From: Maylandia zebra
Lineage: Eukaryota > Chordata > Actinopteri > Cichliformes > Cichlidae
DNA: 64,000 bases
Reading direction: 5' to 3'
Assembly (NCBI RefSeq): GCF_041146795.1
Contig: NC_135182.1
Coordinates: 33,400,509-33,464,508 of the forward strand
Part shown: one piece after another, positions 1,220 to 53,332 of the stretch
Position numbering within the stretch: the first letter of the stretch is position 1
How the letters are laid out: every line of letters starts with the position of its first letter
Position numbers and translations under genes: made by a program
The notes under the pieces: model-generated
Database searches by the model: none
What the model saw: only the letters and a program-made list of their open reading frames with translations
What the model was told of the DNA's origin: nothing

Positions 1220-3109
1220 TCACTTGAATGTAATCAAATATTCAGGATACGCCTGGGCATCATGGAAGACAACAAACATGGTGGGATTGGGGGTTTTATC
1301 CACAACACTGTCGTACAGGTCAGTGGAGGCGGGGCCTTTCACTGGTGGTTCAATCATGCCTTGTTTTCCAACAGTGAAGTCACCAGTCAAAACTCGGCAG
1401 ACGTATATAAACTTCTCCCCGTTCTGATTAGGCTTGGAGTAGGTATTGCTAGCAGAGTAACTTGCATTGACAGCAAAATATGTGCCATTGCCGTAGCATG
1501 TAGCTGAAAATAGAAGAGAGAGAAAAGAAGAGAAATCAATGAAAAAGATATAACATATTATCTGCCATTATGATTATTATTATGATTAATAATAATAATA
1601 GTAATGACTACTACTATTAATAATAATAATAGTAGGAGTCACAGCACTCCAAACTTAAATACTAAAACCCAATTTCAAAAAAGCGGGGGCAAAACATTTT
1701 TTTAAATAAAACAGAAAGGAATGATTTGCTAATCTCATAAACTAAGATTCTATTTACAATGCAACATACTGTGGAGACAGACATTCAAACTGAGTGTAAT
1801 TCAGTTACTTCAGTCACTGCTCTCTCTCAACTCATGGCAGTCTAACACCTCATCAAACTTACTCCAGAATTCCTCTCTCTTCTGACATCACACCTATAAG
1901 ACATACATACATTTAACATTACCCTGGTCTGACATCCTCTTCAACCTTATTCTGCCTTGATGATACTATTCACATACTCTTAATTCAAGATTGCACCTAA
2001 TCTGTTTTCCTTCCTGTCTATACCATGGTAGAACAGGTTGAATCCATCTCCAGAGGTCCTGGCCTTGCTTCCCTTCCACCTCATCTCCTGCAGTAACAAT
2101 GCATCTGTCCTCCTCCTATCTGTCATATCAAACAGCTCGCTCCCCTTTGCTGCTGCTTAACACGAATTGCACCTGTCCTCTTTATTGTCTTTGAGAAATC
2201 ACCCTTACCCACACACTAGCACACTTTCCACAATAGCCTCTCTCCAACAGCACCAGAGGTGGTTGGTGTTAACCCAGTCCCCAATGGATCTGGCATGGTA
2301 ATCTCAATCTTTATGATCTGCATGTTTGATTTGGACAAGATTTTCCACAGGATGTCCTTCCTTACACAACCCTCGCCATTTATCCAGGCTTGGGTCTGTT
2401 ACTAGGAGTACACTGCCTTGTGCCCCACTGTAGCTGGGTCTTGAATGAGAATTATATGTTGCTCTAAAACCTGTATATATCTTTCCGCATTAGTGATATC
2501 TTTCCAAATGTGGAAGCTGTTTATTCCAAAGACAGATTCTCTCAGTCTTTTGTTGATATTATGTACTGTAGATAATGAAGTATTCAAAGTATTCTCAAAT
2601 TCACATTGATTAATATTTTTTTGAAAGTGTTCAACAGTTTGCTCACTGTTGAACCTAGGCCCGTTTTTCTGGGAAACTTTGCCTCTCTAAGATGGTATGT
2701 TTTATACCCTTTCATGTTACTGATCAGTTGTACTAATTAGTTGCAAAATGACCCTTTGGCTGTTGCTTTTTGGGACCACTTATTTTCCAGTCTCTTTGTG
2801 TCCCTAACTTTTTTGAGCTGTGTTGCTAAATTCAAAATGAGGTAATATTTTTTTTTATAAAAAGTCAAACATCTCAGTTTAAATATTTGATGTTTTCTGT
2901 TATGACCCACAAACATGGTCCACAAACATCTCACCATTCTTTCCTGCATAGCTCCTGTTGAAACCTCGCTTATTAATATTTGGCACATTTGTGTTGCAGG
3001 TACCATGGAAAAGGCGTCTCTCGTTATTCTGATGACCATTTCTCAACTCCAAGTCACGCTTCTTGATCTGTAGACACTTCCACAATCCAGGATTCTGGAT
3101 ACGCTCAAT
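1220..3109 (-). CDS. parp14: copy A last two exons: PARP catalytic core
   Basis: Exons 2935-3109 and 1220-1503 (284 nt including TGA). LFHGT carries the NAD-binding His (about residue 1115), [11 protein letters not shown] the Tyr (about 1147), and TMFVVF places Met (about 1214) where poly-ADP-ribose polymerases have Glu. A hydrophobic residue there is the mark of mono-ADP-ribosyltransferases. The C-terminus PEYLITF matches PARP14/15. Possible polyadenylation signals (AATAAA on minus) lie at 1076-1081 and 1054-1059. Confidence 0.9.
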
Positions 3110-6100
3110 CTGAGAAGAAGAAAAGTGCTTTTTGTGTAGACTGATGTAAGTTTATTTTAACTACTTTTAGTCAAAATAAGTTAATCTGTTTTCCTTGAAA
3201 GAGACTTTTTTTTAAAAAGCTAAAAAATAATGTTTAATGCTAATTTCATAACAGTTTGACTGCATAAATCCCTGAACGTATGTACAAAAATACATTTTAA
3301 ATACATTAAATACATTTTGAGTGAGAGATTCTTTTGTGGACATTTTATTACCCAAAAAACTTTTCTATGGAAGTAATTTTAAACAAATTTGATTAAAATC
3401 ATTTTTTGAAATAATCAGTCATTATCCATGCATCCACCAAAAACTTTCTGCTCTAGTGATCTGAGTGATAAATAAGAAATTAAAAGACCAAATTGTTAAT
3501 GCTACCTTTGTAACATCAACAGTTTGATTGCATGATGCCTGGAACAGCTTCAGGATTTCATCATATTCTGATGTATTGGCCTGTATTGCAAAAACCTGAC
3601 ATGGGGTAGCTGGCATGAGTTCCCAGTGCCCCGGAATGCCATCATCTCTTTTCCTGCTTAGCATCTCAGTGTTGTCTTCAATTTTGATCGTCTGAAGTTT
3701 TTGGATCAGTTTCTTGGCTAATTTTACATCAGCCTGAGTGTCACCACAAATGTGGAAGCAAGTAGCATCAGTATTTCCACCCATAAACATTTCTGAAAAA
3801 AAAAAAAATCAAAAACATTAGAAATTAAGGTTCAACACCAACTGGAGACACTAGAACAGTCCTAGTAGGTTTTTCTTATACATATTTTTACCTTTGATTT
3901 TGCAAATGCCTCTCCAGGCCCCCTTTCGTTTTTCCTTGGGATTAGGATCAGTAGCTGCTCTCTGTTCCAGGCTGCTGTGGAAGTCTTTTAGCATAGGTTT
4001 CTGGAAAATAACTATGCGGATTGTGGTCAGGGGACCGAAAGAGTTTTGGCTCAACACATCAATTACTGCATCCAACATGGCATCTGCCACCAGTCTTGCT
4101 TTTACATTACCTTGACCTAAAAAAAAAAACCCATAATACTATAATTATAATTTGAAGAATTGATTTGTTAAAGGTACATGCTGAATATGTGTAGTCTCAA
4201 GGTTTGTCAGTAAGATTTCCAGGGCATCAAAGACTTTCTCTAAGTTGATGCAAGTTACACAGACAGAACTTTAGTAGTTACGTTGTCTGATAATCAGGTG
4301 TATACGCTAGCAAGTTTCATTTCTAAGAATAGACATAAGACTACAAAAACTACAGAAGTTTTTACAGTAGAAGTTGTTACAGAGTTTATATTAGCTAATC
4401 AGTTATCTTACTGAAACATAAATTTCATGTACACTGTTTTTGTTTGTTTTGTTTTTTTAATGGAAGTTTCCATAAATGGTAACATTCAATTCATAAATTC
4501 CAAAATTTAATGTGTGGTTAATAACAATGAAAAAAAATGAAACACAGAAACATACCAATTCAAAAATGATGGGTTTCGCTTTATTTCCATAGTTTTTTTT
4601 TTGTTTTTTTTATTGTGTACCTAAGTCCCTTGCATACATAATGGGTCCCACTGTTAACTGGATGATCCAGATTCAAAAGTTCATCTCTGTCAAAAAATCT
4701 TTAGTCATTGTTACAGAAGCGTACCATCTTAGAACCTGCCTTTGGATATTTTACTTATTTTGCCATTGCACACCCTCATGCCCTCTACCTTAAAAGATAC
4801 AAACAATTTGGTTTGGACTGCAATTTTTGTGAATCCAAGCAGACTGCAAAAAACTATCTGGCCAGGGAAATTTAGACTTTTTTTGTTTCACCATAAAGCT
4901 TAAGAGGTGTGTAGCCCTCATTTAGCAAAACAGAGCTTAGATTACGGTATTTTAAAGGCTACAGTATTGTGTGCCTATTAGTGTTTGAGGCATACTGAAG
5001 AAGAACAAATATCAAGCAGACTTATATGGAATTTCTGCATAAAAAGGGCTGAAGATCACAGAAATTCACCCACCATGGCTGCAGCACATAGATCATGATC
5101 ACAGAAGATTATAAATGAAAAGAATACAGAATTCATTTTTTTATTTTGCTAACCAAACAATTGCATTGGAATAAAGTAATGTTTAAAATGAGTTGGAAAA
5201 TTTAACTATTTTAATGAAATGAATGTAATTGTAACCCATGTGAAATACAGGGCTGCAAAATCCCTTTTTGTAATCTAAGGCTATAGCCTGTTATTGTCAC
5301 AAGGGGGCGCTGTGATGCAGTCTTGTGTTCTGATGACCTTGCGTCTAGTGCGCAGGAAGTATTACCTCTCTCTTCCTGTGAGATTTTCCCTCTGATGGCG
5401 GTCAAGTACGTGTCGGAGCGCATGGAAAAAGTATCTTGGCCCCGAACTCTGACCACAAAGGTCTGTCAAGTTATTTGTGTCTGAAAATCCCGATTGGTTT
5501 TTTTGAACTACTAGAAGAATTCTGGAGAACCACTGACGGCGAGAACAGCCCAAATGAGATCCTGGATGATCGTGAAATGGTGTGGCCAGCCATGCGATCG
5601 GATTGTGGGATTTGCCTGAGAAACTGATTCAAGCAACCCTGGATTACAGATAAGCCCTATGCACTACTTTTCCTACCCGGATAATAGGGTTTGCACACTG
5701 ACAATTCCCCTACAGTACACCTGTTTGGGTTTTCAACGACTTTAAAGGACAATTCAGACTGGACAATTCAAACGTCACAACAGGAACACTTTAATCTGTT
5801 TCATTCATTCCCAAGAGCTCTGATACTGTTCAGTATAAATCTTCCACTTAAATGTCTTTATTTTGTTTTGTTTTACATGTATTCACCTTTAAAATGCACT
5901 ATTAGTGTGCAATTTGGGTTATTGTGTTGTATATGTGTATAAATGGTACTGAGGCAATAAAGGTCCCAGTTATTCACTTCCAAGCCAACTCCTTTTGTGA
6001 GTCTCCAAAACAAAACCTCCTCCTGAACCTAGAAAGATGTCTAGGGTCTCTATTTAAAGTGAGTGTGTACTGGTGCTGAGTAGAGGCGCTACATAATGTT

Positions 6101-9100
6101 TACCTTAATTTAGAAAGAAGTAGCTTTTACCCATCTTGGATAATGGTGCAATGAAAAATCCCAACAGGAAATGACTCAGGGAGCAAGCTGTGTGTGTCAT
6201 GTGAGTGAGGTAGAAAGAAGATGACATGGCTGTTTATACTGAGTATACAAAAATCCTGCGCAAAAAGATCTAGCTGTTATTTCCTGCCTGAACCATCTCA
6301 ACTGTTTCCTTTCAATGTGGAGGAGAACAAACCCTACTCTAAGCCCGACCCAGGTGGCTGAACTCCTCACCCTATCTCTAAGAGAGATAACAGTCACCAT
6401 TCAGAGAAAGCTCATTTCTGCCACTTTCATCCGTGATCTTGTTCTTTTGGTCACAACCCTGAGCTTGTGACCATAGGTGACAGTAGGGATGTAGATAGAC
6501 TGGTAAACACATCACCACCTCTTTTCATCACTGCAGCTACAGCCCCAATACATTTGTTGATCTCCCACAGAAATAGAACCACATTGTCTACAAAAAGCAG
6601 AGACAAGATTCTGATACCACCCAAATGAAAGCCATCTGCTACTTAGTTACACCTAGAAATTTTGTCCATAAAAATCATTAACAGAATCAACGACAAAGGG
6701 CAGCCACATGGTGTAGACCAACATCCACCAGAAGCAAGTATGACGTAAACTCTTACAATGGTTGTATAGGGACCAAATAGCTCATAGTCAGACACCCCAT
6801 ACTTCAGAAGCACCTCCCACAGAATACTCAGAGGGACATGGTCAAAGTCTATTAAACCACATGTACACTGGTTGGATGAAGTCCCATGTACCCTCAAATT
6901 TCCTCAAGAGGGTAAAGAAATCATCCAATGTTCTGCAAACGGGACAAAAACCACACTCTATTCTATTCTAATCCAGAGGTACCGCTCCAGATTTCTATTC
7001 AACATTGTAGAGGCATGTTGACTAGTGGTGCAACGGATCAAAAATCTCACGGTTCGGATCGGATCACGGTTTTAAAGTCATGGATCGGATCAATTTTCGG
7101 ATCAGCAAAAATAGAAAAAAAAGACAAAAATTCTACTCGCCGTTTACTTATTTAAGTATTTTTTGCCTATTAAAAAACATTCAACTGAAGACTCATTCCA
7201 CGCACTTATATAAAACAAATTAAGGTGCAATATGGACATTATGGACCATGCTGGGCAGCCTCTGCATCCTCTGCACATGGCTATAAACAACCAGAGGAGT
7301 CTGTTCAGTGACAGGTTGCTTCTCCCAAAGTCAAGGAGCAGCAGACTTAAAAAGTCCTTTGTCCCACACGGCAACAAACTGTTTAACTCCTCGCTGGAGG
7401 GGAAACAGGGACAGAGGAGAGGGGAACAAGTAGCTGTAGTGCCTTTTCACTGTGCAATAGTTTTTGTTAATATCCAACGGTGTAATAGACTCACAATACT
7501 TAAAATGTACCGTTCCCTTGTATTCTTATTCCTATTTATTCTATTTATCCCTTTTGTATTCTCTGTATTTATAAATGTGTATATGTGGTATATTTCTGCT
7601 CACATTTTTGCAACTTCTGTCGGTGCTGTGCTGAATTTCCCGGAGGAACCCACCCGAGGGATAAATAAAGTTTCATCTAATCTAATGTAATCTATAGGGC
7701 AGTGCAGGGCTTTGTATCTACCACTCCGCTGTGACGGTCACGTGGCTTTCCGTTGCCCAGGAGCTCCACCCATTTGTAGTTTGAGCAACAGAAGATGCCT
7801 GGGACAGTTCAGCCATAACTTTAAACTTCTCCTGCTCATACATGCTTGGAACGATGTCACTGAAGTGGACGCGCAACAAGAAATCATAGCGTGGCTCAAG
7901 CACGTTCATCACAGTTTAAACCCCTTGTTTTGCACAACAGACGACGGCCTCCCGTCTGCAGCTAAACACCCCATTAGCTTTAGTAATAGCTTTAGCCCGG
8001 TCGGACTGGGCAGCAAAGGGCTGCTTAAATGCTGCAAACTCCTCTGCTCCGTTACTTGGACCGCTAGCGCTGGCCATAACTACCACTTGACAGACTGACC
8101 GTGCGCACCATGCACATACTTTCTTTTTTCTTTTTCAATTCTTCGGATCACGTGCGTACCGAACCGTGGAGTGGGATCGGTTCAGATTTTGGATCAACCG
8201 TGATCCGTTGCACCACTAATGTTAACCAAGGCAGCCCTAAAGCATCCGTCAGGAATTTTGGGTAAACCTCATCCACCCCAGGGGCCCTGCTACCGAGGAG
8301 TTGTTTAACTGGCTTAGTGACCTCACCCTCAGTGATGGGTTAGTCATTCCCTTATCCCCCACTCTGCCACCTCTATGAAAGATGTGTCAGTGGGATCCTG
8401 AGTTGCCAGAACTGTTTTGAGGTAGTCCGAAGTGCTTTTTCATCTGCTCTAGGCATTCCAAGATCCATGTGTGAGGCCATGAGTTGTAGGTTTTCTTGTA
8501 CTTAATTCAGGCAGTGCACAGACTGGTCACTCTGGTCTTACAGTTTTGAGTTACTGTCAGTGAAAAGTTTGCTTCATGTGTAAACATACTATTTGCAAAC
8601 AACTATACTTTCTGCTGACAATAGTTTTTCAGTTCAGAAGTTCCTTCAGCTACATATGATGTTGGTGTTTAAAGCTTTGACAGTAAGTAAAGATCCGGCT
8701 TAGACTGTGTGCAAATTTGACATAAAGTTAACTAGTGCAAATTCATGCATTAATATTTATAGAGTAATTGTTTTAATCGCTATTGTGCAGAGAATTGATT
8801 GGTCAGTAGAAGGTGATTTCATGTCTATTGATCCACAATCCAAAACATAACCTGTTTCATAATACACGTTTCTGGTTTGGGCTTAACGTAACTATGGTAT
8901 GTAGATTTCCCATATCATGAACTTCTGACATACATGAACAAATCTCACCTGTGCCAATTGCAGGAAATGATACAGAGGTGTAGGAGCTTTTCACACACAT
9001 CTGAAGTGCATCTTTCACAACCTTGTTGATTTTTACTGGGTCAGAATCTCCAACCACGTGAAGGATCTTCTTACACTTTAGGTTACCTGGCTGAGTCATT

Positions 9101-12100
9101 ATCATGCCTGGATTGGACTTGGCACCTAAATGTGGAGATAGTGGATCTTTATGTCTTTTACCCTTAATGACCATAAGAATGCTTCATTAGGCCATATTTC
9201 CTTTATTGGCAATCTTAGAGTATGATTACAAAATTGGGCTTCATATTAAGTCAGCTTCATTTTTATTGTTGAAAAAACAAACTGTTATAGGTGGAGTCTA
9301 CTCTGAGGTACAATGTTAGAAAATCTAAAAGTGATTTCTTACCAACATTGTGACATTCCTCTTCAACAGCCTCACCAGCTGCATCTAGAATAGCTTTAGA
9401 GACTCCTGGATGAGGTTAAAAAAAATTAGGTGGATTCATCTTTTCTGTAATTTCATACTTAATTTAAAAAGATGCTTAATTCTTCTATGTCCACTGTGCA
9501 ATAGTGAGGAGAGAATACATATAACTATAATTATTTTTCAAAACTGTAATATTCCACTTTTTTCTATGATTTACCTGACTTAAGGGAAAAGCTTTCATTG
9601 GAAGAGTTGACAATGATATCTGTTGTCTCCCTGGTTATGTCTCCTGTGACTACCTGTATAGTCACATTTCCCATTTTAGTCTCATGCATATCTGAGGTTG
9701 AGGTGAGCTTAGAGAAGGGGCGTCCTGGCGTGAACAGTTGAAAAAACATGAACAACTAAAGCCAACAAATTAAATTAATGGATAAATAAATAAATACACT
9801 TTTCACTTCAAACGTATATGATTTAATGTTGGTAAAACTATTTGTTAGCTGAGTAGCAAAAAGACTATTCATTATAAGGTTTTTGAAAATATGCAATTTG
9901 TGATAAAAAATTAAAAACAAACAATGTTATGTGCCTTCAGTTTTTGTAGAACTTGAATCACCTGAGGCATTGGGAAACTTCTTAAATTCATCAGTGAAAG
10001 CCTGCAAAAACAAAACAATCTACTTCAACTGAAAAAAACACTAATATTTAAACCAAAACAGAAGTTAAACAATGCAATATACCCAGCAGCAACCCGTAGA
10101 GTTTAAAAACAAAGTTCACAAAGAAGAGCCATTCAATTTCCTAAAAGGCCACTTAAGGCCAGCTGTAGACTTCATTTCCGTGTTGTGAGTCTCTCTCCAA
10201 AGACTCTACATCAAAATGAATTTTGCAATAGATCCAAGCACGTTAATAGCCGGGTTAAAAATTTATCTAAATTGCTATTTAATCAGATGCCTCCCATGTT
10301 CTTGATTAGAATTCACGTTTAAGGCATGTAAGCAATGTCTTCACTTTATGAATGTAGTATTTTTTTAATTCGCAGTCTACACTGAGACTTTATTAGGTAC
10401 ATTCCACTACATCCTAAAGTTGCTCCATTGGATTTTATATGGTGACTGTGAGGGCTACTTGAGTACAGTGAACTCATTGTCATGTTCAAGAAACATGTTC
10501 GAGAGGACTTGACATGGTGTACTGTTGACATGTTTCACTGTCGCTCACCAAGTGAAGCTTTGTTGGGGCGAGAGTCACAATGGAGATTAGCCAGGCCAGC
10601 TTCACGGACAGTGTTTCTGTCCAGTGTCTGTTTGTTAACAGGATGGTGCCATCAGGGAGGTCATTGGTGCAGTGAGCAAGGGACTCACATTGTGGGCCAC
10701 AGCTGGGTTGTGGTGCAATGAGCTCAATGTGTCTGTGAAGGTTCTCAGTCATCCAGGTCATCGTAGTCAAAGGAGCTTGCAAAGAAAAGCGTCTGGACTT
10801 CTTTAAGTTGCTTGAAGACGTTTCACCTCTCATCCGAGAAGCTTCTTCAGTTCTGAAGAAGCTAGTGGGAGTTTCCCCCCACAGAGGGACAAAAGGACCC
10901 CCTGATGATCCTCTAATCGCCTGAGCCAAGGTGTGAAACTGGGTGTGGGTCCCAGTCAGCCAGAGTTTCGGGTGTGTTCATTGTGAAACCTGGCCCCACC
11001 TTATCATGCGAATTCCTGAGGTCAGATGGCCCAGGATGTGAGTGGGCGTTAAGGCGTCTGGGAAGGGATCTCAAAACTGGATTATAGATGGCAGAGAGTT
11101 GGTGTCGTAAACCCCCGCCTCTGTTCAAAGATGGTCGCTCACAGTGGACATAGATGGCTTCTTTCACTCCTCTTTCAAACCATCTGTCCTCTCTGTCCAA
11201 AATGTGAACATTGGCATCCTCGAAAGAGGATGAGCTCAATGGAGAAACAAGCAGCAGAGAGAAGAGATTCCTTGTTCCTGGGACTAGACTGATGCGGTTT
11301 CACCGTCAGAAGAGGAATTGTTTCTGTCTCTCTTAAAATATAATGAACATTCTTCTTGGGTTTAGTATAATTTTATTGAAGGTTTGTTTTGGATTTTAGT
11401 TTAAACAGAACTTTTTTTTTATTGTGTATATTGTGTTTACTTATTCCTGGTTTCCTTCTCTGAAAATAAACCTCGTGGTGTGACATTTAGGCCCACCAGC
11501 GTTAGGGTCTACACTTCCTTGGTATTAAGGGGCCCAGAGAAGAAAATATCCCCCAGTATCATTACACCATCAGCAGCTGCCCTGAAGCGATGATAAAAGG
11601 CAGGATGGATTCATATTTTCATGTTTCAGAAACTGCAAATTTAGTGGGATTTTTCGACATACTCATCTCTCAGTTTTACAAATAGTTGTCAGAAAAAGAG
11701 AAAATATCCTGTGAGGTTCCAGTATTATCCAGCATTCCCTGTTGAAAATACCTTTAATGTCAGAGGTCAGAGAACACTTGCAAGACTACTTTGAGCTGAT
11801 AGGAAGGCAACAGTATTTCAACCACTCATTGCAATCAAGTTATGCAGAAAAATATCTATGAAAGCACAACACATCTGAACTTGAAGTAGATGAGTTACAG
11901 AAGACCACAGTGGGGACCACACCTGTCAGCTAAGAACAGGAAACTGAGACTACAATTCACACAGGCTCACCAGCCCTGGAGAATAGAAAACTGGAAAAAC
12001 ATTGTACCATTGGCCTCCACAGTTACTGGATCTCAATCCAGTAGAGCACTCTTGGGATGTACTTGAAAGAGAAATTTGGATACAAGCAGCTAATAAATCT

Positions 12101-15100: not shown

Positions 15101-18100
15101 AGTCCATTATTACACTCTTAAATCCTACTACTTATTCTTGCGCTGTTTGGGATCTTATAAAGCTTCAAACGACGCGTCGACTATTAAATTAGTCGTCGAC
15201 GATTTTGATAGTCGACGTAATTGTGACTAGTAGACTAATCATGATAGCCCTAGCGCATAGACACAGACAACAGTAATGAGCCGTTCCCCGACCCGAAGGT
15301 GCAGAGAACAAACCCTCTCGTCCATCGGGGAAAACTCTAATGTATAGGCAGCAAGCTGAGGAGATACCCACCCCGAGCCCGCTGTCTCTCACCTCAGGCA
15401 ACTCTAACCAAACTATATCTAGCTGGTACCTCTTGACCTCAAGTACTAGCTCAGGCTCCTTTCCCATCAGAGAGGTAATGTTCCATGCCACAGTAGCTGA
15501 TTTTGTAACCCTATCCCAGGCAGAGTGAACTATTCCCTGGATTTTCTTCTCTTAGGGTTTTTTTAAAATCACTCTTTGTCTGGTCCCTCACCCAGGACCA
15601 ATTTACCATGGGAGACTCTACCGACAAGATAGCCTCTTGGATCCCTGGGACACACAAACTCCTCTACCATGATAAGGTAGTGATTCACAAGGGGGCCATA
15701 AAATTATACATCTAAAGCTGAAGATGGAGCCAATTTATATATATAATTATATAATTTATATATGTTATTACATCATTATTACATTTGCTATTATATCAGT
15801 ATGGCCCAGAATCTCCGAGGAATGTTTCTTGCACCTTGTTGAATCTAGAAGAAGAAGATGCACACCACTTCTTCCGTTGTCCTCCACTTGTCCATTTTTC
15901 TCAGATTTTTTTGAAGAACAAACTGTGCACCATTTTGAGATGCCAAGTTTTCAGCTTGAATATAATTGTGAAAAATCCTGTTTTATGTTTGTCTAACTGT
16001 GTTATCTGTGATATTTTATGTAGTCAGGCAAAGAAATGGGAACAGATGACATGCTTAAAGAAAAATAATTTAAAGTTGGTTCTTGACTAAGATGTGAATA
16101 CAAAACAGTTAGTTGCCTTTGTTATGCTTGGATGATTCATAGATCAGTGTAAAGCGCCAAAAGAAACAAAACAAATTAAAAAAAATATTCTGCTGAAAAT
16201 TGCCAGATACAAGAACTGGAGTGAAAATCAAGGGAAAAGCAGCCAATGTTCAAATAAAAACTTGACTTGCTGTGTATTTGAATGTGATATATTAATGTGC
16301 AAGCTTTTCTTACCTGAATACACTGTCTATCACTGGGGTAAAGTACAATATGAACCTTCTTCAGGTGCTTGGGTTTTCTCTTTTTGCTAAACTCTAAGAT
16401 TTTATCCAACATCAAGGAGGCTACGACAGCTGTTGGGAAACACAGGTCTCCAGTGCCAATTGCAGGCAAGGATATGGAGGTTAGATTATTATTCTCTGCC
16501 ATGTCCAAACAATCCATAAAGATTCCTTGCAAACACTGTAAGGCAACAAATAAATACTATTTAATAATAATAATGATAGTAATAAATATAATGACATTTA
16601 GTTTCAGTAATATTCATATGTCATCAATTTTAGACTGTAGAGATTATTTAAAATATATTATTTATGATGAGAATACATTACCTTTTCAGATGTGCATTGT
16701 CCATTATCCCAGTGAGGTGCAACTGTGTGAAAAACCTTTTTGTTCTTTAGTTGGCAGCCCTCAGTAACAATGATCTCACCAACATTTCCAGTAGCACCCT
16801 GTGCATTTATTGACTGCTGAAGTTTGGGTCCAGCTGCACGCAAGATGGCTTTTGAAACTGCACCTCTGTTCAGGTTGAGGTTTGGAGGCACACTGTTCAC
16901 AATCACCTCTGTCTAAAAGTTTATGAAAGTGAACATAACTATTATAAACAATAAAACAAAAAACAATAATAAAAGAAACCGTCAAACCCTTCACTATTAA
17001 AGATAATTTATAACTAGAGGATAGGGTGATTAGTTAATCTACATGTGTACTCTTGTAGTCTGGCATCTTGTGTGAGTAAAAAATCTGGCATAAAGTAACT
17101 ACGTGCTCTGGATTAAGTATAATAAGAATCCAAATTACCATGGTAGCCTCTATATTTCCCTTTGTAAGAAGGATGTCCAGACCCTCTTTGGACTGTATAT
17201 GATACAAGTACTGGTCAGATCCAGTAGGCTGCAGAACTGGCCTATCGACTAGTTGAACCAGGCAACCAGTTTTAGTTTTGATTGAGGAAACATACAGCGC
17301 TTCATTTTCCTGGAAGAGCTTCTTCACTCCAGACTTGAAGACATTCAGACTTTCAAAGACTACAGCAGAGACGGCACCTTCAACCACAGTCTTGCAATGT
17401 GTCACATTCACTCTGGATCCACTCAGACAGATGGCCTCATTTCTGTAGGACACTCTCACCTTGTCTTTCACTTTCTCCATCCAAGATGTGTTGAAATGTT
17501 TCAAGTATTCAACGACAGCATTAGCTTTGACCACAACAGTTTCTTCTATGTGAGCGTTCTGTGTTAAGAAGACACCAAGCTGATGCTGAACATTTTTGAC
17601 ACTATCCTTGTAGCCTGACACCACGACTTGTTGAGCAGTTGTGTTGATTCGAGTTCTGCATGGCTTACTGTTAGCCTGCTCTAAGTGACTGACCAGCTGC
17701 TGCCACTCTGGCTTCTTCAGGACATTACTGTCTTCAACATTAATGTACTGAGATGTTAACAGCTGTCCTAGATGATCCTGAGCATGAGACAGATCTGTGT
17801 CAGAAACAGCAAGGAGCTGCACCCTGTTCCCACTGATTTCAAACGCTGCGTTTATTCGATGAGATGTGAGGAGAGCACCTGTAAGCTCCTCTTGTTGCTC
17901 ATCCTTCAACAGTTCAAGCACATATTTATCTACTTCCAGATTCTGTCGTTTTAATGCAAGTACTGCATCAAATATAGCATTGATTGCTGCATTAATCTCT
18001 TCCCCTAAACCAGTTATTTTCAGATTAGGACTCTCTGGTGACAATTTGAGTTCTGGATACACAAGTAGAAGTTTGTCCATGAGGCCATTCTGACATAGGA

Positions 18101-35482: not shown

Positions 35483-35540
35483 GTAATGTTTAATGTAGTT
35501 CAGCCTGTTATTGTCTTAATGATAGGTTTGTAGCTTAAAA

Positions 35541-43837: not shown

Positions 43838-46800
43838 CTAGTCACAAAATAAACAAATTCAGTTTTTTAGCTCTTGAGCAGAGGCTTTCAGTAGTGAAAG
43901 CACTGAAATATCTACTAGTAAGAAAAATCATGCTAAATTTCAAATACTAACAGATTTCTGATCTCTTATTACTACTTTGACAGGGTTGAATCTCTTTCTA
44001 TCATTAAAATACCTTTTAGCTTGTCAATTCTCTTTATCTCCAGGATATTTCCCTGGCTGTCAGTGGCAGGTCCTTTTGGCATGGTGACAGTGTAATCTTG
44101 ACCCTTGACTGTAACGTTTACAGTTTGTAAATTTTGTTGCAGTGCTTCCTCGAGGTAGAAGTTGGTCATTTCATCAAAACTCTGAAACTGGAACCCAGAC
44201 TGCTGATACTGCCAGTCTGCCGCAGCGCTGGCCAGCTCCACTTTCCTGTTTAGTTCCTCCTCGTCTCTCACCCTGCTCATCATTTTATAGATTTCAGTGT
44301 TAGCTTTGAGCACATCCCTGCTGAGTCCTTCAATAGTGATTGTGGCTTTGGGCTTATTGCTCACAGTCCTTATGCTGATGTCCATGGTCTTCTGCATGTC
44401 AACAATTTTCTGTCGATCTGCATCAGAGAAACTATGGATGGCATTGTCTCCAATTTCCATGCTGTGATATTCTTGGGATATCTTGTCATTTATCCATTTC
44501 TTAGCCCAGTCAACGTTGGCTTGTGTGTCACCACAAATGTGGAAGCAAGTAGCCTCCACTTTCAGACTGTCAATGACAAAATCTTTTTCTGTCCTTTGTT
44601 TTTCAGGACTTCCACCAATAAAGAATGCTGAAAGAACAAATTTCAAAAACAACATGAGAACTTAACATTTGAAACTGATTAAAGATATAGGAATGTGAAA
44701 CCAAAAATTACTTTGCTCTGTGTATTTACATTTGACTTTATTGAGCCAGCTCCACCCTGCTTTATCCTTAGAATCGGGATCAGCAGCTTCCCTCTGTTGC
44801 ATACTGCTGTGGAAGTCTTTAAGCATAGGTTTCTGGAAAATAACTATGCGAACTGTAGTCAGGGGGCTGGAGGTGTTTTGGCTCAACACATCAGTCACTG
44901 CATCCAACATGGCATCAGCCACCAGTCTTGCTTTTACATTGCCTTGACCTAAAAACAAAACAAAAAATAAACAAACAAAAAAAGTAATCATACATTAAAG
45001 ACTGCTGGGATGAACAACATAGACAGTAAAATAATAAATTATTGTAAAAACAAAAATATCAGTGTGACCATGAATCTAAATTGTCAGGGGTCACACAAAA
45101 TTTTCTCCATAGACTTTCTCGATGTTAACTTTTTTCTAAACACAGGTTGCCTGCAAATTAAGACAAGAAATGCAATGAAAGGTATACTATATTGAGGTAT
45201 ACAATACCCTCTCGTGAGCAAGTCAATATAGTAAGTGGGCAACATGTCATGCATTTAGGAAAACTGCTTAACCCGATGACATTAGAGGATTATTCAGCAC
45301 CCTATGTGCTAAGAAGGCCTTTATAAATGTAGCATTTGGATATGTGACCTGTCAGTGACAAAACGCTTTCTAAATCTCACCTGTCCCAATGGCAGGAAAC
45401 GATACAGAGGCAAAAGAGCTTTTCACACATATCTGGAGTGCATCTTTCACAGTCTTGTTGATTTTTACTGGGTCTGTCTGTCCAATCAAGTGGAGGATCT
45501 TTTTACACTTCAGGTTACCAGGGCTTGTCAATATCATGCCCTGGTTGGGCTCAGCACCTAAAAGCAAAGTTGGGAGATGTTAAAGAACCTTAATAATTAT
45601 GTAAGTATGTACAAGGGCATACTTCTTTCTTGACAGTCTTGTGCTAATACTTAGCTTCCAAGTTATTATTGGGAAAACAAGACTGTTATATTGTAGCCAA
45701 TGTTTCTGAGTTATAGCATCATAAAATTATAAGTGATTTCTTACCAAGGTTGCGGCATTCCACTTCAACAGCCGGACCAGCTGCTTCTAGAATAGCTTTA
45801 GACACTCCTGGAGGAGGCAAATGTTACATCACTACTGAATACATACATATAATCTAAAGGATCATTATTACTGTGGGTGGACTGTTCTTTATACAAAGAC
45901 TTTTGATGTAATATTATTCTCTATACAGCACCTAAATATTTACATTTAGTTTAAAAGCAGAAAAAAACAATGAGAAACCACCATTAATGTTTTGCACAGC
46001 TCAAATACTGTCATTCATGCTATGACTAACCTGTCTTAAGAGTAAAGTTTTCATTGGAGGAGTTGACAACGACATCAGCGGTCTCCTTGGTTATGTCTCC
46101 TATTACTACCTGTATAGTCACATTGCCCATTTTAGTCTCGTGCATGTCTGAGGTTGAGATGATTTTAGAGAAGGGGCCTCCTGGAAATTGATAAAAAGAA
46201 CTAATTAACAGCAAAAAAGAACTACAATAGTACACTTTCTAAATTTTGAATGCTGATATAATTGTCAGTTAGCATATGGAAAAAATATAGTATATTTCAA
46301 CAGTTACTACAAATGTACAAAATGTTTTTAACAGCGTTATGTTATAGTTCTTAGAAAATATATAGTTTTTAGCAGAGGTGGGAAGTAGTAAAGTACAAAT
46401 ACATGGTTACTATACATATGTTGAATCTTCAGGTATCTGTACTTTACTTGAGTATTTACTTTTCTGACAACTTTTTTTTTACTCTCTACAAACAGTGTTG
46501 CCTGCCTTCACTTTGTGTAGAAATTGTTGAACCACTTGAAGCACTGGGAAACTTCTTCTGAAATTCATCACTGAAAGCCTGCAGACAGAAAAGAAGAGAG
46601 ATTTTATTGACTGAAACATTCAATTATTACACCAAAACTGAAGTTCAATAACAGCTTTGCAGCTTTCACTGGTGGAAAATGCTCAAAAACTTTTCTGCTT
46701 AGCACTGAATTGTTGTTGCTTCAAAGCTTGTGATTTTTTCTTACCTGGATAGTTTGTGTATCACTGGGGTAAAGTACGATCACAACCTTCTTCAGATGCT

Positions 46801-49800
46801 TGGGGTGTTTCTTTTTGCAAAACTCTAAAATATTGTCCAACATCAAAGAGGCTACAAGATCTTTAGGAAAACCCATTTTTCCAGTGCCAATGGCTGATAA
46901 GGATATGGAGGTTAGATTATTACTTTCTGCCTTGTCCAAGCAGTCCTTAAAGATTCCCCTCAAAGTCTGAAAGACAAAGAATAAATACTATCTGTTTAAA
47001 GACATTTAATTAAAAATATGACATTGACCATCAAAGTTAGATCAAACAGGTTCTTTAACCTTATACTGTGAGGTTCATCACCTTTTCAGATGTGCCTTGT
47101 CCATTATCCCAGTGAGGTGCAATTGTATGAAAAACTTTTTTGCTTTTTAGTTGGCAGCCCTCAGTAACAATGATCTCACCAACATTTCCAGTAGCACCCT
47201 GTGCATTTATTAACTGCTGAAGTTTGGGTCCAGCTGCGCGCAAGATGGCTTTGGAAACTGCAAATCTGTCCAGATTAAGGTCCGAAGATACAGTGTTCAC
47301 AATCACTTCCGTCTAAAAAAAACCCAAAGTTTTATAAATATGAGTACATATTTATCATGTCTAACAATATAAAAACACCTCAAAACATAAAAATAACAAA
47401 AGAAGCTCAAACCCAAAGATTAAATAAACATCAAGAGACTTTATAGCTGTGTTAATAGTTAATGCTAAATAGTCTTGCACATTGTGTTCCTGTCTGAAAC
47501 AGACAAAGTAACTATTTGCTTAATTGGGTATAACAGTACAAATCTGAATTACCGTGGCAAACTCTATTTTTCCCTTTTTAAGAACGATGTCCACGCCTTC
47601 TTTGGTCTGCACATGATTTAAGTACAGGTCAGATCCAGCAGGCTGTGATACTGGTTGTGTGGGAGCAGTGAGATGAGGAGTTTGTTGAGAATGAGAGTCA
47701 CTGAGGTTTCCAAACTCCTGCCTGACAGCAGCCACCATATCCTGAACAGCAATGTCATCATTGTTCACAAAATGGATCTTCTGCAAGATGATGTCATCAT
47801 AGTTCTCATCACAATACTCCTTCACTGCTTTAACAATGGTGAGTTCACACTGCTTGAGGGGAAAGCAGCGCATTCCTCTGCCAATAGATGGAAGAGCTAC
47901 TGAGACGCATCCGTGGGCCTCAGCAAGTTCTAAACTTCCTTTAACAGCTTTTTTCAACTGAGCCAAAGCTTTTTCATGTTTATCTTTTTCAAACTTGGGT
48001 CCCACAACATGGATGACTTTTTTGCAACAAAGATTTCCTCTTGCATTTGTTATGACACAGTCTCCTGGCTTGAGCTGACCCTTGTTTTTAAATGCTTTGT
48101 CACATTCATCTTGTAACTGAGGGCCGGCAGCCTTCAAAAGTGCTGCTGCAAGACCAGTTCTGTGTTTCAAGTCTTGATTAGATGGATTGACAACTGCCTG
48201 CATTGGGTAACTGCACATATCTGCCTTGGAAACAGCGATTTCTACTCCTTCAGGTGTCATAAGTTGGTATAAAGGTGTTGGTACTTGTTTAACGTTGTCT
48301 TGTCCACCACCTGGCTTATCAACTAGTTGAACCAGGCAACCAGTTTTATTTTTGATTGTGGAAAAATAAGCTTCATTCTCCTGGAAGAGCTTCTTCACTC
48401 CAGGTTTGAAGACATTCAGACTGTCAAAGACTACAGCAGAGACGGCACCTTCAACCACAGTCTTGCAATGTGTCACATTCACTCTGGATCCACTCAGACA
48501 GATGGCCTCATTTCTGTAGGACACTCTCACCTTGTCTTTCACTTTCTCCATCCAAGATGTGTTGAAATGTTTCAAGTATTCAACGACAGCATTAGCTTTG
48601 ACCACAACAGTTTCTTCAATGTGAGCATTCTGTGTTAAGAAGTCACCAAGCTGATGCTGAACCTTTATGGCACTATCCTTGTAGCCTGACACCACGACTT
48701 GTTGAGCAGTTGTGTTGATTCGAGTTCTGCATGGCTTACTGTTAGCCTGCTCTAAGTGACTGACCAGCTGTTGCCACTCTGGCTTCTTCAGAACATTACT
48801 GTCTTCAACATTAATGTACTGAGTTGTTAACAGCTGTCCTAGATGGTCCTGAGCATGAGACAGATCTGTGTCAGACACAGCAAGGAGCTGCACCCTGTTT
48901 CCACTGATTTCAAACGCTGCGTTTATTTGATGAGATGTGAGGAGAGCACCTGTAAGCTCCTCTTGTTGCTCATCCTTCAACAGTTCAAGCACATCTTTAT
49001 CTACTTCCAGATTCTGTCGTTTTAATGCAAGTACTGCATCAAATATAACTTTGCTTGCTGCATTAATCTCTTCCCCTAAACCAGTTATTTTCAGATTAGG
49101 ACTCTCTGGTGCCAATTTGAGTTCTGGATACACAAGTAGAAGTTTGTCCATGAGGCCATTCTGACACAGGAGATGAAAAACTGATGGTGACACTTTGATC
49201 TCTTCGGTTTTACTTGATTTGTCCCTGTGGATCGTTTTTGCAATCTTGTTAATAATTTCAGAAAGAGATTTCTCCAGTCTGTTGACATCACTAACAGGAC
49301 CAGCCACTGATAAAGCACCTCTGTCTTTATCAGGTACTACAATCACATTTTCATTCAGTAACATCTCTCTGATCTTTTTCTCAGACTCTTTCAATGCATC
49401 TGAATCTGGACAGAACTTCACAGATTTGAACTTTGACACAGATTGTGCAAACGCTGACTTCACAGTATCAGTCCACTCTTTGAGGATGGCTTTGGCATCC
49501 TTTTGCTTTAGTAAAGAAGATACAGGACTCAAGGTCACAGTGGTTTGGCCGAGGTTTACGATGCAGAAGTGTTTGTCCATTTCACTGCAAATGGTCTCTG
49601 CTGCTGATTTATTTTGAGCTAGGTATCTGAGGACAGCACTGTCAATGGGCTCTGAGATGGCAGCGGGAAGTTTTAGTGCAGGTTTGTCTTTGCCGTAGAG
49701 GGCCACTCCCAGACTTTTATAAAAAGGATAAACTCTGATTTCTTCCTTTTTTATGGAATGCTTCTTCTTGAAGATTTTTTGAACAGCTGGAAAAAAGAAT

Positions 49801-52442
49801 GTAACATACTGTATATTATTATTCACACGTTATTACTGTAGGTTTGCAGGAACATACAGTGTAGTGTAAATAAATTACCTCGATGATCTTTAAATGTGAT
49901 GACAGCAGACTGTTCCGCTTCATTAAGGAAGACCTCTTCCACATCCCCACCTTCATTTTCAAAATAAAGCTGAAGAACTTCTTCACTGAAGTGTAGAATG
50001 TCGTCAACTAGAACTTGCTTTGTGACTTCGAGAGGTTGAACAGAAAATCCCTTCTTGGTGAACATTTTGTTTTGGGGGCATTTTGCCACAAAATTAGCAT
50101 TTTCTGTGAAATAGAGATTAAAAAACGGTTTAAGGCATTTTTAATAAAACAATTCTGCAGGATAAATCTTCTTTGTTGATTTAATAATGAGTACACCCAT
50201 TTTTCAGAATGAAGTATCAGCACATTTATAATTAGCAAGGTACATTACACTACCAGTAGTCTGTGTTGCTTTGCTATCCTGTGCATTAGTGCGCTAGAAA
50301 ACTTTGTCATTCTAACTCAGGAAAATAAAATGGCCACATTGTCCTGGAAAATTCCTTTATTACATTTGTGGCATATTTTTATGTTGTTTTATGTTAATGA
50401 GTGTTGGACCTGGTTATGCAATACAGATTTCAGCATCAAACGGCCGGTTAAACTTTATATTATCATATCATAAATAAGAACTTTTCATTCTGAAATGGGT
50501 ACCTTCTCCACTCTGGAAAGTCACCACAGCAGAGGAGATGTCAGGAAAGAATTCCAAAGTGAAGTCATGAGACTTAGTGATGTTTTCCACCAGCATCTCC
50601 AAGAACTCCTGGTTGGTATTATCAAGAATATTCCCTAAAACGGCCGAGGTGGAACATGGCTCTTCATCTGCTGTATCATCGTCTCCGCCTTCTGTTTCTG
50701 TTTGAACTGTCGGGTTGCTTTTATCAGCACTTGCCTGTTTGTCTGCAGCAACATCTGCTGTTAAAGACAAATGTGGCCAAGTGTAACAAACATATACTTT
50801 TTAGATAGTGCAAGACTTAAAACACTTATATTTTAATTACTTATTTTGGTGTTTCACTCACAGCTATTGCTTCACACTAATCAATAAATTAATTAAAATA
50901 AGAATAATCATTAATATCGACTTAAAAAAATAATCAGACTTTGTATGGTCTTATTGACGTAATGTCTAGGAGACATCTAGTGTATCCGACCAGTCTTGAA
51001 GTGTAAAGCACACTATGTTAAAACAGCATGAAGCTTTGGATATTTTATTGAGAGAGAGGCAGTTTTATCACATAAAGCTTGTCAGCTTGTCTAATTTTTG
51101 ATTCACAGATTCATTTTTTCTTTGTTTTGTTTTCTTCTTACTAATGCTAGCTAGACAGACAAATCACAAGCTATCTAGCAAATACAGTTCAGAAAGGGTC
51201 ACAGAACCTGAGGTACTTTCCATGGTCTCACACGTATTGAATTCATCAGTTAAATACAAATATTTAACTTCAAATAATAACTCAACTAAAACAGTATAAA
51301 TGAAAGGCAAGCCAAATAGGAAATGCTGGACGTGTAATACAGTACAAACACTGATTAGTTCCAAATTGTGTTTGGTGGTGGGGAGTTGCTACTCATCTGA
51401 AAAAAAAGTGAATGTCTGAGAAAACTACCTGAGACAACCTGCCTCGAGTGGATGAGATCACTTGATTAATCAGACGCCCAGGGCTGTTGTGTTAACTCAG
51501 CTTTTCCAGTGTCACAAAGTAGCACTGCTAGATTTGTGAAGTGTTAAGTTAACAACTAGCTGGAAAACAGAATGTTGTTTGTGAAAGTCATCAGTAGTAA
51601 AATCATAACCAAGTAGAAATGCTAGCTTGTGAAATTACTTTACCTACGATACTAAATGATTTCAAATGGCGCTAACTTTAGCCATCAGTAAAGCATGTAA
51701 TGGCTCAAAGCAAAGATGTACAAAGTATTGCAGTAATAGCTAACATTGGCACAGTTAGCCTGCTGAGTGTAATCTAGAGATTTTCTAGTATATATTGTGG
51801 TTGTTGGTGTTTAGGTGGGCGGATCAGAATATTTCAGAAGCTCTGGGGCTTTCCCACACAGCCACCTCTAGGGTTTATAGAGAATGGTCAAAAAAGAGAA
51901 AATATGCAGTGAGCAGCAGTTCTGTGGGGCAGCAATGGCTCGGTGATCTCAGCCATCAGAGGATAATGGTCAGACGACTTGTTATAACTGAGGGATGCTG
52001 AAAAACACAACATGTCACAGACTGAAGCAGCTGGGCTGCAACAGCAGAAGACCAACACTGTTCTCCATTCCTGTTAGCTAAGAACAGAAAACTGAGGCCA
52101 CAGTTCATACAGACTCACCAAAACTGGACAATATTTTTTTTTTGAAAGTGTAGCAATGTCTGATTAATCTGATGATATTTGTATGTTAGGGTCAGAATTT
52201 GGGTCCAATAGGATACTAACAAGGTGCACCTAATAAAGTGGACAGTGGTGTATACTAAAAGTAGATAAACTATAGGGGTGGACAAGTGAAAGGACTTCCT
52301 GATCTTTTAGACTAGTGGTTATAAACACAGTTCTGCTCACTCAGTACTTACATTTCTTCTTATCTTTATCAGACAGAGTTTCCTGTATAAAGAAAATACA
52401 AAAAATACACGTTAGTCACATTTGTTTAGAATTATAGCGAGC

Positions 52443-52491
<49 letters not shown>

Positions 52492-53332
52492 TGTGTGTGT
52501 GTCCAAAAAATAATTCATGCAAACAAATTCATTGTCAGCTTTGTCAGGAAAACCGCACCCAGTAATGCTTTCCGAGCAGTGAGTTTGACTTTTACAATAT
52601 CCGCACGGCAGGAAGAGAAGCAGTGTGCAGCACAGCTTTGGCTTTATAAAGTCACATGACTTCCAGTAAAAGATCAACATGGTCAGATTTCAATGGAACT
52701 GAATGATAATTTGGAGTCTGTAGAGGGGCTCAAGGGTCCCACAAAGCTGAGGAATAATTGAATATTCTCGCATTTCATTTCCTTTTGAGAACAGGAGGGT
52801 CTGACAGAAATTAGAGGCGCGCAGGTTTCACGGCGCACTATCAACAGTGAAACCTTATCTCATAAATAGCATCGTCAATATAAGAACAGATTTGAGGTAC
52901 ACAGAACAGAACAGTTGTTGATAAATGATTCATGACAAACTTTTCGCACCCGTGATGATTTCTCTTCCGTGGGTAAGCGGACCGTCAGCTTCAAAACGCC
53001 TTTTTCCAAACTGATCTGATGCGACTCTTTGGCCAGAACGTTTCTCTGATCTGTGACACAGCACAAACACATGTCACCACATAACTCCGTTGATAATAAG
53101 TAATATTGTAGCTGCTTAAATAAAGCAAGCATGACGTTATTGTGACAAACTTACCCTCCTCTCTCCGGAAGCGCACCATCGCCGTCCTGCTGCCATTTTC
53201 ATACTCCACCTCACACTCGCCACCACCGTTAGATTTCTTACTTTGAAAGTATTTCACTAACTTGATTTTTAATCTGGGTATTTTGGTTTCTTCGAGCTCA
53301 ACGAGCAGAGGATAGGAGTGTACGCCGGCCAT
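41309..53332 (-). CDS. parp14: PARP14-like mono-ADP-ribosyltransferase, copy B (complete architecture)
   Basis: Predicted exons in transcript order: 53155-53332, 52950-53050, 52352-52382, 50503-50757, 49879-50103, 47553-49786, 47082-47312, 46745-46966, 46536-46578, 46031-46180, 45745-45807, 45381-45557, 44730-44948, 44013-44627, 43704-43837, 43413-43587, 41309-41592. The sum is 5337 nt, or 1778 codons plus stop, close to human PARP14 (about 1800). Domain order: three RRM-like units (1-263), KH-like repeats (264-770), macrodomain 1 (about 774-956), macrodomain 2 (about 985-1159), macrodomain 3 (about 1174-1376), WWE (about 1507-1579), PARP domain (about 1590-1778). Known family roles are mono-ADP-ribosylation, ADP-ribose reading and removal, and interferon/STAT signalling and antiviral defence. 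An ATG two codons upstream (53338) could also start. Exon 9 uses the donor GTGGTT, a weaker site than in copy A. Confidence 0.9.
41722..42782. mobile_element. non-autonomous hAT in copy B intron 16
   Basis: Ends TAGGGGTGAG and CCCAGCCCTA with ATCGATT-rich subterminal repeats; GTTATGAC is duplicated exactly (41714-41721 and 42783-42790). No transposase coding sequence. Confidence 0.85.
43001..43292. mobile_element. palindromic MITE in copy B intron 16
   Basis: 15-bp inverted termini CCCATATGGAAAAGA / TCTTTTCCATATGGG. The right half holds a 50-bp perfect palindrome (43216-43265) and an imperfect copy of half of it (43173-43200). Superfamily not assigned; flanks show only TT on both sides. Confidence 0.65.
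44013..44948 (-). CDS. parp14: copy B exons 13-14: end of macrodomain 3, KH-like segment and WWE domain
   Basis: Exon 44730-44948 finishes macrodomain 3 ([14 protein letters not shown]). Exon 44013-44627 encodes [17 protein letters not shown], then [14 protein letters not shown] and a WWE domain at about 44015-44240 ([33 protein letters not shown]). WWE domains in this family bind ADP-ribose-containing ligands or mediate protein contacts. The whole WWE segment is absent from copy A. Confidence 0.85.
45381..46578 (-). CDS. parp14: copy B exons 9-12: linker and macrodomain 3 (first part)
   Basis: Exons 46536-46578, 46031-46180, 45745-45807 and 45381-45557. Motifs: [57 protein letters not shown]. 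Exon lengths match copy A except for one codon in exon 9. Introns are short (under 450 bp), unlike copy A. Confidence 0.85.
46375..46500. mobile_element. hAT-like terminal fragment
   Basis: GGTGGGAAGTAGTAAAGTAC and TGTACTTTACTTGAGTA resemble the 36830-38760 family; truncated. Lies in copy B intron 9. Confidence 0.4.
46745..47312 (-). CDS. parp14: copy B exons 7-8: macrodomain 2
   Basis: Exons 47082-47312 and 46745-46966, both phase 0. Signatures: [64 protein letters not shown]. Motif order matches human PARP14 macrodomain 2 (VVNSVPLDL, APEW, AIGTGNLGF, LHPSD). Confidence 0.85.
47553..49786 (-). CDS. parp14: copy B exon 6: KH-like repeats and macrodomain 1
   Basis: A 2234-nt exon of about 745 codons. 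The first two thirds are KH-like alpha/beta repeats (start [27 protein letters not shown]). The last third, about 47709-48257, is macrodomain 1: [51 protein letters not shown]. Macrodomain 1 of human PARP14 is reported to remove ADP-ribose. The usual NAxN and double-glycine pattern is altered here (NPSN, HRTG). The exon ends at the start of macrodomain 2. Confidence 0.85.
49879..50757 (-). CDS. parp14: copy B exons 4-5: second and third RRM-like units
   Basis: Exon 4 (50503-50757) starts with an acidic linker and continues into [15 protein letters not shown] and AVVTFQSGE; exon 5 (49879-50103) has [28 protein letters not shown] and SAVITFKDH. These correspond to the RRM-like units of human PARP14 with the same AVVTFQ and LEVTNT/FFEN patterns. 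Both exons are phase 1 to phase 1, so removing one or both keeps the frame. Copy A has no counterpart. Confidence 0.8.
50758..52351. other. copy B intron 3 with Tc1-like fragment
   Basis: Contains a plus-strand Tc1-like N-terminal fragment at 51795-52250 ([20 protein letters not shown] helix-turn-helix region) and an AAGGTGCACCTAATAAAGTG end. The rest shows nothing recognised. Confidence 0.55.
52352..52382 (-). CDS. parp14: copy B exon 3: 31-nt microexon
   Basis: Encodes [10 protein letters not shown] plus one base between ATACAG acceptor and GTAAGT donor on the minus strand. Phase is 0 in, 1 out, which joins correctly to exon 4. A partner exon exists in copy A at 20082-20112. Confidence 0.75.
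52447..52501. repeat. (GT)n microsatellite
   Basis: About 27 GT units with one interruption (GTAT) in copy B intron 2. Confidence 0.9.
52950..53332 (-). CDS. parp14: copy B exons 1-2: N-terminal RRM-like unit
   Basis: Exons 53155-53332 and 52950-53050. The protein begins [15 protein letters not shown] and includes the [12 protein letters not shown] stretch also seen in human PARP14, then [13 protein letters not shown]. The first ATG lies about 262 bp from the parp9 exon 1 donor on the opposite strand, so the two genes probably share a promoter region. Confidence 0.85.

Follow-up and report, generated by a model that had tools for sequence, protein, structure and literature searches.

What becomes of a PARP14 gene that has lost several of its domain blocks, and is such a gene still at work or already in decay? 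The question is raised by a 64,000-nucleotide stretch of Maylandia zebra DNA (hereafter the window; NC_135182.1, positions 33,400,509 to 33,464,508) that carries a shortened PARP14-like gene, copy A, beside a full-length one, copy B, both on the minus strand. Our analysis favors the first possibility, with a probability of about 0.6: as judged from its sequence, copy A would be a functional, domain-reduced PARP14 paralogue within a PARP14-PARP9 cluster, arising by the stepwise losses proposed below. A compact and constrained copy A is indicated by a low ratio of nonsynonymous to synonymous divergence (dN/dS) between A and B, purifying selection along the branch of A, the absence of acceleration, a sister gene of like plan (copy D), and the contrast with a decayed neighbor (copy C).

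Domain losses in copy A and the four-gene array

The exon models of both copies were rebuilt from the DNA of the window, which contains no N, and are predictions (Table 1). Pfam places RRM1-3, KH1-6, KH8, three Macro stretches, WWE, and PARP in copy B (17 exons, 1778 aa), in agreement with the complete PARP14 plan of 1778 codons that a first-pass annotation had assigned to it. In copy A (14 exons, 1232 aa), Pfam finds RRM1, KH1-6, two Macro stretches, and PARP, so that the annotated 1232 codons lacking RRM2-3, macrodomain 1, and WWE were recovered as well, with the loss of KH8 as an addition to that list. The description of an open frame with consistent exon phases likewise agrees with our models: neither has an internal stop, GT-AG borders every modeled intron (13/13 in A and 16/16 in B), and the intron phases of A equal those of B once exons 4 and 5 and the 14/15 split of B are removed. 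No Pfam match to RRM2, RRM3, KH8, or WWE was obtained in A at E<=0.01; the RRM2, RRM3, and WWE peptides of B, searched against the window by tblastn at E<=1, matched only B itself; and no counterpart of exons 4-5 of B was found between exon 3 and the KH exon of A.

The two Macro stretches of A correspond to human macrodomains 2 and 3, and its ADP-ribosyltransferase (ART) domain matches human PARP15 and PARP14, with human PARP15 chains giving the best scores for both the ART and macrodomain 3. Of the features that mark PARP14, three tandem macrodomains are carried by B and D and only two by A, and of the RRM1-3 plus KH array, A has RRM1 and KH1-6, RRM2-3 not being found by Pfam. Membership in PARP14 by descent is indicated, as the closest relatives of A are full-plan PARP14 genes and a PARP9-like gene adjoins them. 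His and Tyr are active-site residues of mono-ARTs. A review gives Leu as another, and A has all three in its alignment with the human PARP15 ART, where PEYLITF is among the aligned segments.

The losses differ in their mechanics. RRM2 and most of RRM3 make up exons 4 and 5 of B, each of which begins and ends in phase 1, so their loss was unable to break the frame. Macrodomain 1 lies within the large KH exon of B and was removed from A by a single intra-exon deletion. KH8 and WWE were lost together with the 175-bp intron 14 of B, which is absent from A, so that exons 14 and 15 of B are one exon in A; a KH8-WWE block ahead of the ART is present in B and gave no Pfam match at E<=0.01 in A or D. 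The KH exon of A might seem to start abruptly with non-homologous sequence, a reading that was rejected because its acceptor is homologous to that of B. From three frame-preserving losses, the first-pass annotation had argued for selection over decay. Its conclusion of a constrained compact paralogue is supported, while the argument itself is weak: with a frame-neutral RRM2-3 loss and a chance of about 1 in 3 of staying in frame for each of the other two deletions, frame preservation alone says little, and we rejected it as strong evidence of selection.

The two genes had also been described as a tandem pair and are in fact part of a four-gene array that reaches outside the window. Genome searches of the 962-Mb assembly (63 contigs; the window is C16:33400509-33464508) with macrodomain and ART exons, in which the best candidates only were scored, combined with tblastn of B exons on fetched flanks, revealed tandem PARP14 genes in the order D, C, A, B, followed by the PARP9-like gene on the opposite strand. 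Copy D (predicted, 14 exons, 1457 aa, open frame) resembles A in lacking RRM2, RRM3, KH8, WWE, and intron 14, yet it retains macrodomain 1. The view of A as one of a pair with three losses of its own was therefore abandoned, two of them being common to D. Copy C (C16:33379556-33395929), B-type by sequence, is a pseudogene lying between D and A. The reading frame is broken in both its first and its last coding exon, each of which falls into two frames, and tblastn against the flanks left RRM2-3, exons 13-15, and the greater part of the KH exon and of macrodomain 1 without a match.

A tree of nine exons from the C16 genes, rooted by three PARP14-like genes on contig C12 and containing no PARP9 or PARP15, joins A with D (support 100) and B with C (support 86), with branch lengths of 0.046 for A, 0.043 for D, 0.027 for B, and 0.081 for pseudogene C. 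Synonymous divergence (dS) outside the KH array is 0.155 (0.126-0.194) for A-D, 0.376 for A-B, and 0.338 for D-B. The D-C and A-B intergenic stretches are collinear, order being conserved in 9 of 11 matches. The C-A stretch, by contrast, matches one A-B element and one D-C element, each twice and over short lengths; D-C and A-B look like copies of a duplicated unit of one reduced and one full gene. Genome-wide, KH_PARP14_1 matches six loci, namely A, B, D, and the three C12 genes. All three of the latter have macrodomain 1, a weak WWE match (E 7e-6 to 4e-4), and RRM3 matches, and two have RRM2, which makes the full plan most likely ancestral. These C12 genes, of which two are on the plus strand and the third is on the minus strand, lie at C12:39725001-39890000 and have the KH array and intact hydrolase motifs.

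Because two of the losses of A are common to D, they predate the A-D split, and the macrodomain-1 deletion appears private to A. In the history that we propose, the RRM2-3 exons disappeared from the ancestor of A and D, as did the KH8-WWE block together with one intron. On the simplest account, this reduced gene was then duplicated jointly with its full-length neighbor, which would have produced D-C and A-B. The full-length C decayed, with A, D, and B remaining open; A most likely lost macrodomain 1 by one microhomology deletion of about 650 bp; and gene conversion keeps the KH arrays of A, B, and D alike.

The alternative that survives best, which we regard as possible though doubtful, accepts the constraint on A and assigns it to generic ART and reader functions, the losses being tolerated by-products of recombination in a tandem array, with B covering the rest and no specialized role for A. 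Such by-products would be expected where exons 4 and 5 are phase-neutral, where the macrodomain-1 junction has a plain 3-4 bp microhomology, where macrodomain 1 already lacks the hydrolase signature residues in B and D, and where homogenization of the KH array testifies to active recombination; what they do not readily explain is that the reduced plan is open in two sisters while full-length C decayed, and that an ISRE-like (interferon-stimulated response element-like) site is retained upstream of A and D, although the site also stands before pseudogene C.

A second alternative concerns only the order of events within the proposed history: macrodomain 1 may have been lost before the A-D split and regained by D through conversion from a B-type gene. 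The D-B dS of macrodomain 1 (0.224) is indeed lower than the D-B value outside KH, and conversion is frequent at this locus, but D-B dS is equally low just downstream (0.223; next exon 0.167), where A also has sequence, and two events are required instead of one; we judge this order of events improbable.

Constraint on copy A and conversion of the KH array

Outside the KH array, A-B dN/dS is 0.366 (0.288-0.457) over 722 codons with two badly aligned stubs omitted, 0.389 (0.307-0.480) over all 790 codons, and 0.400 (0.325-0.504) in a three-way alignment, as estimated without a codon-frequency model. Had A been neutral since the duplication, with equal branches, the A-B ratio would not lie below 0.5. 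This observation is strengthened by a neutral simulation of 790 codons, which accumulated a mean of 12.25 stops and gave no stop-free run in 500, compared with none in A (simulations, permutations, and A-B bootstraps were run without a fixed seed). Changes were polarized with B as the outgroup over the named regions only, and conversion may blur these counts. Since its split from D, the branch of A carries 35 synonymous and 48 nonsynonymous changes outside KH (48/83, P = 7e-4 against a neutral 0.745, the nonsynonymous site fraction of the KH segment; the non-KH value of 0.751 would lower the P-values slightly), and 24 of its 47 changes in macrodomains 2 and 3 and the ART are nonsynonymous (P = 5e-4). 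The branch of D carries 31 synonymous and 58 nonsynonymous changes outside KH (P = 0.03 against 0.745), and the nonsynonymous proportions of the two branches do not differ (P = 0.35). A-D dN/dS over macrodomain 3 and the ART is 0.34 (0.23-0.51), and in a relative rate comparison with human macrodomains 2 and 3 and the PARP15 ART, A and B show 24 private changes each.

Several results weigh against a constrained copy A. The upper bound from the three-way alignment, 0.504, touches the neutral floor of 0.5, and decay within the last ~0.01-0.02 substitutions per site would leave 28% to 8% of simulated runs stop-free. Moreover, A-D dN/dS outside KH is 0.57 (0.42-0.75) overall and reaches 1.04 (0.64-1.83) when RRM1, exon 13, and the last stretch of the KH exon are taken together, which may reflect relaxation or diversification in these segments. 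The excess of ISRE-like sites described below consists of sequence matches only and is suggestive, short of proof.

The divergence pattern indicates concerted evolution of the KH array among A, B, and D by gene conversion. A-B dS is 0.059 over 437 codons of the array versus 0.367 elsewhere (Fisher P about 5e-19), the differing codons number 46/447 in the best segment versus 326/780 outside it, a contrast reached in 0 of 5000 permutations, and dS in the KH core is 0.061 for A-D, 0.048 for A-B, and 0.069 for D-B. Given this homogenization, the open KH frame of A is no evidence of long-term selection. D has more private KH changes (16 synonymous and 43 nonsynonymous) than A (6 and 11), as expected with a more recent A-B conversion, and the spread of A-D dS per exon (0.05 to 0.28), together with the likeness of exon 7 among A, D, and B (0.17-0.21), suggests that conversion extends past KH. 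One macrodomain-3 exon (A 9125-8949; D C16:33353167-33352991) is 99.5% identical between A and D, compared with a difference of 9-12% in the ART exons, and this identity may reflect conversion between the two genes or strong constraint. A comparison of KH Pfam scores that seemed to show A better conserved than B was rejected, as A was favored in 6/6 single-exon comparisons and in only 4/6 with the full protein.

These data bear directly on the possibility that A is a young or dying pseudogene, kept open by chance and by conversion from B. A recent KH homogenization (dS 0.059) weakens the open frame of the array as evidence, a very recent death would be invisible to the stop-count simulation, and RRM1, exon 13, and the final stretch of the KH exon have an A-D dN/dS near 1; set against this are zero stops outside KH where about 12 are expected, purifying selection on the own branch of A, GT-AG at 13/13 introns, and a rate no faster than that of B or D, unlike C. 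None of the stops, frameshifts, broken splice sites, or neutral dN/dS that mark a pseudogene were found in A, and C contrasts with it in this respect. Copy A does not look like a pseudogene by these measures, and we consider the possibility distinctly unlikely. That the reduced gene is an assembly artifact is very improbable: tandem homogenized genes are prone to misassembly, but the window and the fetched stretches contain zero N, A and D show identical losses at separate places of the assembly, and the A-B synonymous divergence of 0.37 outside KH is too high for collapsed copies.

Macrodomain 1, KH8-WWE, and known PARP14 systems

What is known of the functions of macrodomain 1 and of KH8-WWE comes from work with human constructs and cells. 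Macrodomain 1 of human PARP14 is a hydrolase of mono-ADP-ribose (PMC10470015, PMC10499325), and hydrolases of this type carry N(6x)GG[V/L/I] and G[V/I/A][Y/F]G, with F926A strongly cutting activity (PMC10470015). Aligned with human macrodomain 1, the corresponding loops read HRTGLA and GRGMRCF in B and HSTGIA and GRGLGCF in D. Both have lost the Phe and the first G of GG, neither gene fits the hydrolase motifs, and macrodomain 1 of B and D is therefore predicted to be inactive as a hydrolase. Both motifs are fitted in 3/3 of the C12 genes (IGG, SGIFG). In the PARP9-like gene, loop 1 fits and the Phe is kept, with loop 2 (GLFN) departing from the motif at two positions; the active human PARP9 has GIFQ in this loop and departs at one. 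The D-B dN/dS of macrodomain 1, 0.60 (0.37-0.97), leaves some constraint, so the domain may serve as a binder in these two genes, and the domain that A deleted had probably already lost its hydrolase function.

The second missing block belongs to a docking module. DTX3L binds the KH8-WWE-ART of human PARP14 through its KH2-3 and inhibits it, according to an AlphaFold model and in vitro tests, with the ART as the main contact, WWE and KH8 supporting it, and KH8 scaffolding the module (PMC11251020). Without KH8 and WWE, A and D would be predicted to dock DTX3L more weakly, given a DTX3L partner here; weighing against this, the ART is the main contact, so that docking might survive the loss. We infer that A is a PARP14 that combines writer and reader functions and has neither a cis eraser nor the KH8-WWE part of the DTX3L-docking module. 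Its ADP-ribose marks would be longer lived and removed mainly in trans, with PARP9 macrodomain 1 among the erasers. A broader and quite tentative idea, which we hold to be rather unlikely as a whole, is that A and D are brake-free PARP14s: the writer, two readers, and the RNA-binding array would have been selected, the two known restraints, namely the cis eraser (apparently dead by substitution in D and B and deleted in A) and KH8-WWE of the DTX3L-docking module, discarded, and mark removal passed to PARP9 in trans, while conversion would leave restrained and unrestrained forms with one common targeting KH array.

Compared with vertebrate PARP14, the locus is alike in RRM1, KH1-6, macrodomains 2-3, the ART, and its position beside a PARP9-like gene, and it is unlike in that A and D lack RRM2, RRM3, KH8, and WWE, and A also macrodomain 1. 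Mammals have PARP15, a partial duplicate of PARP14 that consists of macrodomains 2 and 3 and the ART (PMC4038475, PMC10221186) and of which elephant and manatee have a shorter form missing one macrodomain, and extra fish and bird PARP14 copies have been proposed as possible PARP15 analogues (PMC4038475). A has the PARP15 combination of macrodomains 2 and 3 and the ART without macrodomain 1, but its descent is another one: it keeps RRM1 and KH1-6, is a close sister of D, groups next to B and C, and, unlike mammalian PARP15, is 0.37 synonymous substitutions from an adjacent full PARP14. By this comparison, A is not a PARP15 by descent and converges on part of the PARP15 plan, with RRM1 and the KH array retained.

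PARP14 macrodomain-1 activity has been lost recurrently in mammals through changes of catalytic residues, as described in a paper that also covers fish PARP9 homologues (PMC10221186). The mammalian losses were assayed (bat, cow, and polar bear; PMC10221186), whereas those of B and D are predicted only, and A has the whole domain deleted. Clustered PARP14-like duplicates in lancelet, and six PARP14-like proteins in sponge with one to three macrodomains and WWE or RRM in some only (PMC4245714), indicate that variable PARP14-like domain plans as such are already known. No description of the reduced plan of A and D was found in the literature searched, which comprised part of the open-licence text only.

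The full B, the reduced D with macrodomain 1, and the reduced A without it form a natural deletion series for the roles of macrodomain 1 and KH8-WWE. Since A and D lack parts that restrain or undo activity in human PARP14, the series offers a natural test of those parts, and as the PARP14 family is thought to be in conflict with viruses, it bears on an antiviral enzyme. The locus is also a concrete case for the published idea that fish PARP14 duplicates may substitute for PARP15, and it points to concerted evolution of the KH array between paralogues that differ elsewhere.

Upstream sites, neighboring genes, and feature coordinates

ISRE-like matches in the window number 8 versus 2.26 expected, a count reached by 1 of 100 shuffles, and 2/8 represent a single coding site that A and B share within their KH exons. 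The GAAAGTGAAAG motif upstream of A recurs in the same context upstream of D and of pseudogene C, and a variant, GAAAGCGAAAG, lies between B and the PARP9-like gene. The latter two genes stand head to head (window 53332-55067), with ~1.7 kb between their starts, the PARP9 start being guessed. This arrangement, with its ISRE-like site, resembles the shared PARP9-DTX3L promoter of mammals, except that the partner here is PARP14. Macrodomain 1 of the PARP9-like gene scores 133.6 bits to human PARP9 and 109.2 bits to human PARP14.

Table 1. Coordinates of predicted features in the window (position 1 is the first nucleotide)
Feature	Position	Strand	Evidence or remark
Copy A, reduced PARP14-like gene, 14 exons, 1232 aa	1220..29525	-	Exon models and Pfam
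A exon 1, first part of RRM1	29351..29525	-	RRM_PARP14_1 Pfam match
A exon 2, second part of RRM1	29135..29235	-	Exon model
A exon 3, 31 bp	20082..20112	-	Exon model
A KH exon: short diverged RRM3 remnant, KH1-6, then macrodomain-2 lead-in directly	17139..18676	-	Exon model, Pfam
Homogenized KH-array tract in A	17240..18620	-	dS to B 0.059 versus 0.367 elsewhere
A macrodomain-1 deletion junction CCAG/T	17236..17240	-	660 bp missing versus B (manual count), 648 bp versus D; 3-4 bp microhomology
A macrodomain 2 (exons 16912-16682, 16535-16314)	16314..16912	-	Match to human PARP14 macrodomain 2
A linker and macrodomain 3 (exons 10001-9962, 9724-9575, 9405-9343, 9125-8949)	8949..10001	-	Match to human PARP14 macrodomain 3 and PARP15
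A exon, macrodomain 3 end and next segment	3892..4116	-	Exon model, human macrodomain 3 match
A fused exon (equals B exons 14 and 15), without KH8, WWE, and intron 14	3506..3792	-	Exon model, Pfam
A ART exon 1	2935..3109	-	Exon model, ART comparison
A ART exon 2 through stop codon	1220..1503	-	Exon model, ART comparison
ISRE-like GAAAGTGAAAG, 39 bp upstream of A ATG	29564..29574	-	Sequence match
Copy B, full-length PARP14, 17 exons, 1778 aa	41309..53332	-	Exon models and Pfam
B exons 4 and 5 (RRM2, RRM3 N-part), each phase 1-1; not found in A or D	49879..50757	-	Exon model
B macrodomain 1, catalytic loops altered	47661..48311	-	Alignment with human macrodomain 1
B exon 14 (KH8 and WWE); KH8 and WWE not found in A or D	44013..44627	-	Pfam
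ISRE-like GAAAGCGAAAG between B and PARP9-like gene	53545..53555	-	Sequence match; variant, farther upstream of B
PARP9-like gene, macrodomain-1 exon; retains HGGGLA and loop-2 Phe (SSGLFNYPL)	55052..56107	+	Macrodomain scores, alignment

Elsewhere in the genome, C3:29.84-32.44 Mb holds many macrodomain and ART exons, some in tandem and without KH_PARP14_1 matches, which constitute another macroPARP expansion. Within the second intron of A, positions 22654-25011 of the plus strand carry reverse-transcriptase open frames like those of a long interspersed nuclear element (LINE), with a putative YADD motif, and these frames are followed by a GC-rich stretch at 26-28 kb of the window (GC 0.56).

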